A stretch of 64,000 nucleotides of DNA from Humidesulfovibrio sp. (lineage in GTDB: Bacteria > Desulfobacterota > Desulfovibrionia > Desulfovibrionales > Desulfovibrionaceae). The stretch is taken from assembly GCA_031292175.1 (NCBI GenBank), contig JARLHQ010000028.1:62001-126000 (forward strand), in the 5' to 3' direction. This document shows positions 12,558 to 15,188 of this stretch, piece after piece (positions within the stretch are counted from its first letter, which is position 1; each line of letters starts with the position of its first letter). The notes beneath the pieces were generated by a model that made no database searches, was not told where the DNA came from, and saw only the letters and a list, made by a program, of their open reading frames with translations. Made by a program: the position numbers and the translations under genes.

Positions 12558-13514
12558 CTACCAGCCAGCGGTGTCTGCTTCGGGTGGACTTTCGGCGTCG
12601 CGCAGGCGATCGGCCACGGCCATGATCGTGCGCGTGTAGGACTGCGAGTGGTTGTAGCGGTAGAGAACCGCCATCTGCCCCTCGCGTGAAAGATTGGGAC
12701 GCCAGCCGTTGGCCGAAAGGAACCGCGCGGTGCTGAGAACAGCGTCCGAGGGGCTGAAAAGATCCACCCGGCCGTCACCATTCAGGTCCATGCCATAACG
12801 CAAGGCGTTTGAGGGCATGAATTGGCAGATGCCGATGGCCCCGTAAACGGAACCGGGAATGCTGGCGGGATCGAAGCCGGCGTTCTTAGCGTACACAAGC
12901 AGGGCCTTGAGCTCCTTGTAGGCCCAAGCGGCCTTCTGAGCCGTGCGCCAGCGCAGCCACAGGGATAATTCTGGAGTCAGGTCGCGGCGCTCAATATGCG
13001 GGGCCACCAGGGAGAAATCACCGGCCAGGGCCATGCTGGCCAAGGTGGCCAAGGCGCTCTTGCTGCCCACGTTGCGCCCAAGCTTGGTCTCCACCAGCAG
13101 CAGGGCCGTTAGGATCTCTTCCGGTACGCTGAAACGCACTCTGGCCTCACGCAGGGCCGTGCGCTGGGTATCCAGAAAGCTGCGGGCTTGCATGAGCAGA
13201 AACGGATTCAGATAGCTGATGTAGAGTTCCGGGGCTTCCGGCTTGGGCTTCCTGGCGGAGAGCTTGACCTCAAGCAGCGCGTTCATCTTGCGGGCCATGA
13301 TGAGCGGATCGAAGCGCACCTCCGCTCGGGAAAACAGCGCGGCGAGGCTGGCTTGGTCAAAGCCGTCGGAAACCAAACGCCGCGTGAGGGGGGTCCACAC
13401 GTCCGGGCCGGGTGGCTGCGTCTGGGCCTGGGCGGTAACCGGGAGCAAGAACGCGGCAAGCAAAAGCGCGACCCCAAAAGGCCGCGCCAGGAGGCTCAAC
13501 CCGCGCGGCGGCAT
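12558..13514 (-). CDS. lytic murein transglycosylase (MltB-like)
   Basis: Signal peptide; SKSALATLASMALAGDFSL, AIGICQFMPSNALRYGMDLNGDGRVDLFSPSDAV. Confidence 0.9.
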   Translation of the reverse strand: MPPRGLSLLARPFGVALLLAAFLLPVTAQAQTQPPGPDVWTPLTRRLVSDGFDQASLAALFSRAEVRFDPLIMARKMNALLEVKLSARKPKPEAPELYISYLNPFLLMQARSFLDTQRTALREARVRFSVPEEILTALLLVETKLGRNVGSKSALATLASMALAGDFSLVAPHIERRDLTPELSLWLRWRTAQKAAWAYKELKALLVYAKNAGFDPASIPGSVYGAIGICQFMPSNALRYGMDLNGDGRVDLFSPSDAVLSTARFLSANGWRPNLSREGQMAVLYRYNHSQSYTRTIMAVADRLRDAESPPEADTAGW

Positions 13515-13548: not shown

Positions 13549-13767
13549 TCACAGACGGTCCAGGGGCACAAAGCCCACCTCCTCCTCAAACCCCTCATCC
13601 ATCTGATCGATAAAATCCTGCAACTGGTACTTTTCGCCACACCCCGTGCAACGCAGGCTTGTCTCGCGTCAGGCCCGGTTCAAATAGATCCCCCCGCCGC
13701 AGGCTGGGCACTTCAGGCCGGGCAGCGTCTTGGCCTCGGGCCTGCGGCGGGACGAGAACAGCCCCAC
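13549..13767 (-). CDS. putative dual-CXXC small selenoprotein (72 aa, in-frame UGA = Sec33)
   Basis: Manual translation from GTG 13767: MGLFSSRRRPEAKTLPGLKCPACGGGIYLNRA[UGA]RETSLRCTGCGEKYQLQDFIDQMDEGFEEEVGFVPLDRL stop; UGA at 13669-13671; SECIS-like hairpin starting immediately 3' of UGA. Confidence 0.8.
13635..13668 (-). promoter_or_regulatory. candidate bacterial SECIS element
   Basis: Directly after UGA: CGC-gag-ACA-ag-CCUG-[CGUUGCA]-CGGG-g-UGU-g-GCG, an imperfect stem-loop whose loop begins 15 nt after the UGA. Confidence 0.65.
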
Positions 13768-13769
13768 GC

Positions 13770-15188
13770 CTAGTGGATTTCCAGGGGCGGGTTCTTCTCG
13801 CCCATGGCCACGTAAAGGTTGGAGAGCGCGGTCTCGTAGTCGGCCAAGGCTTGGGACAGGGAGGCCTCGCTGCTGCTGACGGAGGCCTGGGCAGTGAGCA
13901 GATCGGTATTGGTGCCGACCTGGGCCTGATACCGGGCCAGGGCCATGCGGTAGCTCTCACGCGCGGTTTCCACGGACTTCCGGGCCACGTCGATGCGGTC
14001 GGCAGCCTCGCGCTGGCTCAAGAGGTACTGCTTGACCTCGAACCCGGCGTTCAGCTTGGTGTTGTCCAGGTCGGCGCGCAGCTTGTTCACGGTCTCTCCG
14101 CCGCTCTTATACTTGTTGTAGGTGCTGCCCCACTGGAAGAAGGTCCAGGAGGCGTTGACGCCCACAGTCCAGTATTCCTTGTTCTGACTGGACATGTACT
14201 TGCTTTCGCTGACAGAGGGGCTGTCGCCCTTCTTGTAGTAATCGTAGTCTGCTCCGACCTGCGGATAGAAGGAGCTTCCAGCGATGGTCTGGTCCTTCTC
14301 GGCCATGGCCACACTCTTGACGCCGATCTGGATGTCTGGGCGATTCTTGTACGCCTGGGTCAGACAGTCGTTGAGCGGCATGCTGAACGGGCTGTAGGTG
14401 AGATCGCCCACATACTCCACCGGTGCCTCAAGCTGCAGGTTCAACAACGAGTTGAGCTTGGCGCGGGTGGTGTCCAGGGAGTTCTTCGCGATGAGCTGGG
14501 CTTGCTGCGCCGTCGCCAGATCCACCTGGGCCTGGAGCACGTCGAGCTTGGGCTTCAGCCCCACCTCGTAGAAGGCTTGCGTCACCTTGAGCTGCGACAG
14601 GAGGCGCTCCACGGAGTCGTTGGCGCTCTTCACGTCCATCTTGGCCTTCAGGTGCGCAAGGTAGTTGCCCTGAATGGAGCTGATGAGGGCCAGCTCGGTC
14701 TGTGTAAGCTTGGCCTCATTCTGTTCCTTGGCCAGCTTGGCCTTCTGGTAGGTGGAAAGCAGGTTGAAGCCTGTAAAGATCGGCTGGTGCAAGTTCAGCT
14801 GGCTGTACCAAGTGGTCTGGTCGGCCGTGGCCATGCTAGCGGTCTTGGGCTGTCTGTCATAGGTCAAAAATCCATAGGATGCCGTGGCGGTCGGCAGAAA
14901 ATCTGCCCTGGCGGAATTTTTGTCATACTCGCTGCCAAGCAACTGGGCGCGCGCCGAGACCATGGTCGGGTTGTTGGCCAGGCCGAACTCCACCGCGTGC
15001 TGGAGATCAAAAGACGAGGGAACGCCCGGGGCCTGCGCCTGAGCCGGGGCGGCAGCCGGTGTGCTGGCCGGGACCGCTTGCGTCGCAGCAGGAGCCTTAT
15101 CCTGGGCCAGCGCCAGGGTCTGCGGGCCCGCCAGGCAAAACGCCAGGGCTACGACGGGGAAGATACGAAGGGATTTGTTGCGTGTCAT
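13770..15188 (-). CDS. TolC-family outer membrane efflux protein
   Basis: Signal peptide MTRNKSLRIFPVVALAFCLAGPQTLALAQ; OEP-type repeats and coiled-coil composition. Confidence 0.9.
   Translation of the reverse strand: MTRNKSLRIFPVVALAFCLAGPQTLALAQDKAPAATQAVPASTPAAAPAQAQAPGVPSSFDLQHAVEFGLANNPTMVSARAQLLGSEYDKNSARADFLPTATASYGFLTYDRQPKTASMATADQTTWYSQLNLHQPIFTGFNLLSTYQKAKLAKEQNEAKLTQTELALISSIQGNYLAHLKAKMDVKSANDSVERLLSQLKVTQAFYEVGLKPKLDVLQAQVDLATAQQAQLIAKNSLDTTRAKLNSLLNLQLEAPVEYVGDLTYSPFSMPLNDCLTQAYKNRPDIQIGVKSVAMAEKDQTIAGSSFYPQVGADYDYYKKGDSPSVSESKYMSSQNKEYWTVGVNASWTFFQWGSTYNKYKSGGETVNKLRADLDNTKLNAGFEVKQYLLSQREAADRIDVARKSVETARESYRMALARYQAQVGTNTDLLTAQASVSSSEASLSQALADYETALSNLYVAMGEKNPPLEIH

Follow-up and report, generated by a model that had tools for sequence, protein, structure and literature searches.

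We find that an unannotated gene on the minus strand of the window (the whole 64,000-nucleotide stretch of DNA that was analysed) very probably encodes a selenoprotein of the NCBIfam family NF041197, its UGA at 13669-13671 being decoded as selenocysteine (Sec) via a hairpin and its product having a predicted zinc-ribbon-like core with a selenol. The identification of the locus as a genuine unannotated selenoprotein gene, and the Sec reading of its UGA, are well supported. The original prediction had already interpreted the locus in this way, and that interpretation held up in the exchange of Sec and Cys among relatives, the continuation of homologs past the UGA, the Sec machinery of the genus, the presence of a SECIS-like hairpin and the family name. 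Its coordinates, strand, GTG start, internal and terminal UGA codons and translation all match the sequence. The translation is VGLFSSRRRPEAKTLPGLKCPACGGGIYLNRA-U-RETSLRCTGCGEKYQLQDFIDQMDEGFEEEVGFVPLDRL (minus strand, 13549-13767); the UGA at 13669-13671 is preceded and followed by open frame, and every invariant residue is retained downstream. The features of the locus are as follows.

13549..13767, minus strand: NF041197-family selenoprotein gene; GTG start, 72 codons, terminal UGA at 13549-13551
13669..13671, minus strand: in-frame UGA, read as Sec at residue 33 on the basis of the Sec/Cys column in relatives
13699..13710, minus strand: first CXXC knuckle, C20 and C23; columns invariant in 79 relatives
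13639..13650, minus strand: second CXXC knuckle, C40 and C43; invariant in 79 relatives; overlaps the SECIS stem
13635..13653, minus strand: SECIS hairpin, from the genus RNAalifold consensus and covariation over 50 Sec forms
13770..15188, minus strand: TolC-family outer membrane efflux protein, upstream neighbour (PF02321, E = 1e-66)
12558..13514, minus strand: SLT_2 (MltB-like) lytic transglycosylase, downstream neighbour (PF13406, E = 5e-49); start codon approximate

The profile of NF041197 matched the translated product with 73.5 bits (E = 1e-20), against a curated cut-off of 40, when Cys was read at the UGA. The alignment runs from residue 20 to residue 72, thus spanning the UGA, and covers profile positions 1-53, which is the whole profile. 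The defining trait of the family, a pair of CXXC motifs flanking a Sec or Cys, is present (C20, C23, U/C33, C40, C43). The name put forward when the gene was first noticed, "dual CXXC motif small (seleno)protein", proved to be that of this very family, and the description of its function as unassigned still applies to NF041197. Searches of viral contigs, plasmids and Rfam gave no matches. A composition scan of the window for other in-frame UGA codons was so strict that it missed even the selenoprotein gene at 13549-13767.

The gene occurs in 14 of the 15 genomes of the window's genus, which includes Humidesulfovibrio. The UGA falls at the identical codon in 13 of these 14 copies, the remaining one (genome G054) having Cys (TGT). 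Two named records (L084, "Desulfovibrio sp.", and L085, "Humidesulfovibrio sp.") encode proteins identical to genus members over the compared stretch. Of 297 genomes sampled from the order, 258 had an NF041197-type match, as did 123 of 396 genomes of the phylum; among the matches listed from outside the window's family, most contain one TGA. Twelve loci came from a contig search with a closely related query. Across an alignment of 79 relatives, invariance was confined to C20, C23, position 33 (Sec/Cys), C40 and C43, although the rows had been chosen by a pattern (Cys or TGA between two CXXC motifs) that biases them toward Sec/Cys invariance; the profile matches L119, L120 and L139 did not fit this pattern. 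Mapped on a sparsely resolved tree, the Sec/Cys label requires six changes. The in-frame UGA is matched by Cys in homologs, with coding sequence on either side, and the expectation that relatives would carry Sec or Cys at position 33 and extend past the UGA was borne out. Among the 13 Sec forms of the genus, pN/pS (as a ratio of means) was lower downstream of the UGA (0.37) than upstream (0.47), and the stop codon lies 39 codons past the UGA in all 13. The codons past the UGA are under purifying selection.

In the G054 copy (L048) the Sec codon is TGT and the hairpin has decayed, in a genome that retains selA, selB and tRNA-Sec. It looks like a recent Sec-to-Cys change. Elsewhere, one clade of Cys forms (L130, L132-L134, L136, L137 and L140-L142) ends in IIYD rather than CDR(I/L), and the genes of this clade start about 40 nt or less from an orotate phosphoribosyltransferase-like gene.

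In the mechanism that we favor, the hairpin at 13653-13635 would serve as a bacterial SECIS that lets the UGA at 13669-13671 be decoded as selenocysteine, and the product would be a protein of 72 residues built on a zinc-ribbon-like core. One structural metal, probably zinc, would be held by the knuckles C20/C23 and C40/C43. Sec33, replaced only by Cys in relatives, would sit near the turn of a predicted β-hairpin between the knuckles and act as a redox-active or nucleophilic selenol. The AlphaFold model of the protein has a pLDDT of 68.6, rising to 81-85 over residues 21-50. Between the two knuckles it has strands 26-32 and 35-40, so that residue 33 falls at the turn. Fold and sequence searches gave weak zinc-ribbon matches, to the ribbons of RNA polymerase subunits, topoisomerase I, HypA and ZifS; the best fold match had E = 0.098 and none was at or below 0.001. 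Zn_ribbon_6 (PF07191) was matched by 36 of the 79 members at E ≤ 0.01. Our best guess is that the NF041197 protein would be a zinc ribbon bearing, between the knuckles, a redox-active selenol.

How the selenol might be used is a matter on which we are more cautious. A thiol/selenol redox role is close to an even call. Tentatively, the chemistry could be of another kind, with Sec33 serving as a metal ligand, or with the protein being a non-enzymatic zinc ribbon that binds nucleic acid or protein and senses redox state through its selenol. The weak similarity to the ribbons listed above would fit such a role, as would the lack of a metabolic neighbour common across lineages; metal ligation is opposed by the model, itself of limited confidence, in which residue 33 lies between the two strands and away from the knuckles, and none of the results argues against a sensor. 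More specifically, the selenol of the ribbon might be displayed at the tip of the β-hairpin, away from the metal, as a housekeeping redox tool or sensor of sulfate-reducing bacteria. We regard this as an unlikely guess; the occurrence in 258 of 297 genomes of the order, together with changing neighbourhoods, would fit it.

The gene neighbourhood was of little help in assigning function. The original prediction had placed a TolC-family gene directly upstream and a lytic transglycosylase gene directly downstream, and both are confirmed by the Pfam matches given above (the start codon of the TolC-family gene was picked from a signal-peptide-like N-terminus, and is likely rather than certain). These genes flank the selenoprotein gene and neither is part of the selenoprotein. 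The neighbours of the proposed operon-like setting stand, but conservation of the TolC and MltB flanks is limited to the window's genus, Pseudodesulfovibrio (with a Cys form) and a few relatives, where they lie inside a larger conserved block, and the setting says little about function. In other lineages the gene has different neighbours, housekeeping genes as named by sequence reading, with no common pathway. Because the neighbour genes differ between lineages, function from neighbours was rejected as an approach, and because they share no pathway, functional assignment rests on the anatomy of the protein.

The hairpin at 13653-13635 has the sequence CGUUGCAC-GGG-GUGUGGCG. Its stem consists of 8 bp (13653-13646 with 13642-13635), including three G-U pairs, and its loop, GGG (13645-13643), begins 23 nt past the UGA. 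RNAalifold of the 13 Sec forms of the genus returned a single hairpin with a three-base loop starting at the same 23-nt distance. Covariation was analyzed in an ungapped alignment of all 50 distinct Sec-form sequences available, three near-duplicates included. The 8 pairs (columns 19-26 with 30-37) were paired in 88.3% of cases; 34 double-change cells were observed, against 11.2 ± 3.9 in shuffles, a number reached in 0 of 500 shuffles, and the covariation score was 0.338, whereas slid partners reached 0.148 at most. In 7 of the 50 sequences (L152, L153, L155, L156, L157, L159 and L160) the best hairpin is in another register or there is none, so the structure does not hold for all of them. The limits given for bacterial SECIS elements are a stem of at least 4 bp, a loop of 3-9 nt with G in its first two positions, and a loop 16-37 nt past the UGA (PMC13188914); the window's hairpin lies within them (8 bp, loop GGG, 23 nt), with an energy of -6.5 kcal/mol, which is weak by itself. 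When all sequences were scanned within these limits, the median was -9.9 kcal/mol for the 50 Sec forms and -1.65 kcal/mol for 58 Cys forms (Mann-Whitney p = 1e-10, or 9e-8 without the genus; as the sequences are related, these values serve as a guide only). The Cys form of G054 has 7 of the 10 pairs of the genus stem left.

Some conservation of the stem is protein-driven, because part of it also encodes the second CXXC motif; coding for CXXC does not explain the double changes or the contrast between Sec and Cys forms. Folded by itself, the window sequence is no more stable than its shuffles (z from 0.10 to 0.81); the proposed folding check on the window gave z = 0.10. Under a synonymous-recoding null, the individual Sec sequences had P values ranging from 0.005 to 0.50, with 0.50 for the window itself. 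The original prediction had drawn a three-helix hairpin (CGC/GCG, ACA/UGU and CCUG/CGGG around a CGUUGCA loop). Covariation upholds the existence of a SECIS-like hairpin past the UGA but not the form in which it was drawn, since other helices are the conserved, covarying ones.

The Sec machinery is well represented in the genus. We found selA in 13 of its 15 genomes, selB above cut-off in 12 and tRNA-Sec, at 81-87 bits, in 13; all 8 genomes that are at least 90% complete have selA, selB and tRNA-Sec. An incomplete congener (G297) is without selB and tRNA-Sec. In the window's own draft genome (81% complete, 2.6 Mb), selA, selB and selC were not found, and selD is the only Sec-machinery gene. 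On the proposed check for selA, selB, selC and selD, selD is there and the full set is present in all eight near-complete congeners, but the other three were not found in the draft. Seven matches to the tRNA-Sec model were obtained in the draft, and the five loci checked with ARAGORN are ordinary tRNAs. The draft's selD (L008, C2:127661-128590) itself contains a UGA in frame close to its start (AAG-U-AAKVAPGDL), with a strong hairpin after it, and is probably a second selenoprotein gene of the genome. The selAB region of a congener has no clear counterpart in the draft, and the selAB-bearing region of G112 was not found on the examined part of contig C15. Synteny was considered as an account of the missing selAB and set aside as uninformative, since collinearity with G112, as with G085, stops near C15 105 kb (about 43 kb in the window), before the place where selAB would be expected.

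These absences leave room for a relic, in which selA, selB and selC have been lost, the UGA now acts as a stop that yields a 32-residue peptide, and the downstream part is a recent pseudogene tail. Such a history would agree with the machinery missing from the draft, with a hairpin that is the weakest among the Sec forms of the genus, and with a pN past the UGA of 0.232 for the window against the others, above the genus mean of 0.171. We consider it improbable: the draft is 81% complete, another incomplete congener lacks parts of the same machinery while the near-complete ones have all of it, selD, likewise a UGA gene, is intact, and the frame past the UGA is open with its invariant residues all retained. 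A gap in the draft is the likelier cause of the missing genes than true loss, even though selAB and selC lie at separate loci in congeners and the gap must therefore have hit both. Because the draft has only selD, Sec insertion in this strain is something that we infer. Reading of the UGA as another residue (e.g., Trp, by suppression or an altered genetic code), or programmed readthrough that does not involve Sec, would also fit a frame that is open on either side, but is hardly credible, as homologs have Cys and never Trp at position 33, the gene terminates in UGA like most genus copies, and the genus possesses Sec machinery.

Many genomes outside the window's family have a second, weaker-scoring NF041197-like locus, also with one TGA. 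The 20 regions of this second type (L165-L184) mostly read CxxCGGxAxIxG(R/T/N)U and then A(R/K)VxC. Of three loci tested with the UGA read as Cys, two passed the NF041197 cut-off and one failed; several fall below the curated cut-off if the TGA is left unread. Judging by its motif, this paralogue is probably the reported DW form (GxU). In a third variant (L176 and L178), CxC replaces the first CxxC (C-x-CG..L.L.R(R/K)-U), again with one TGA.

Standard gene calling truncates genes of this kind at the UGA, and they are easily missed, as here, despite presence in 14 of 15 genomes of the genus. The family could be used to ask why Sec is kept or lost. Most of the listed matches outside the window's family have TGA, many of those inside it are Cys forms, the SECIS covaries in a mostly fixed register, and one Cys-form congener still has selA, selB and selC.

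Compared with known systems, the protein resembles the zinc ribbons of ZifS (8yoz) and the RNA polymerase III small subunit (9fsr_J) in its CXXC knuckles on a predicted β-hairpin, and 9fsr_J aligned at 1.8 Å over 32 columns; it differs in that the resemblance stays short of a fold match at E ≤ 0.001. The ZifS, RNA polymerase III and Zn_ribbon_6 ribbons are not known to carry a conserved Sec/Cys between their knuckles. Much closer is NF041197 itself (CxxC_Se_CxxC), which corresponds to the predicted selenoprotein OS_HP3, with motif RxU (2026 review, PMC13188914; also PMC9312934); as cited in that review, OS_HP3 goes back to Zhang and Gladyshev (2007) and a symbiont of Olavius algarvensis. The window's protein shares with it both CXXC motifs, Sec in RxU between them and small size. 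The C-terminus differs, being FVP(L/M)DRL in the window's clade, whereas most other lineages have an extra Cys, xCDR(I/L); apart from this, nothing separates the two. A GxU form, "hypothetical protein DW", was predicted with deep-Sep (PMC12013277) and is placed under the NF041197 model (PMC13188914). It is of the same fold-size class, has Sec between two CXXC motifs and matches the same model, but with GxU instead of RxU and another C-terminus. The family is thus already catalogued and predicted, and the window's gene is an additional, well-supported member of it rather than a new kind of gene.
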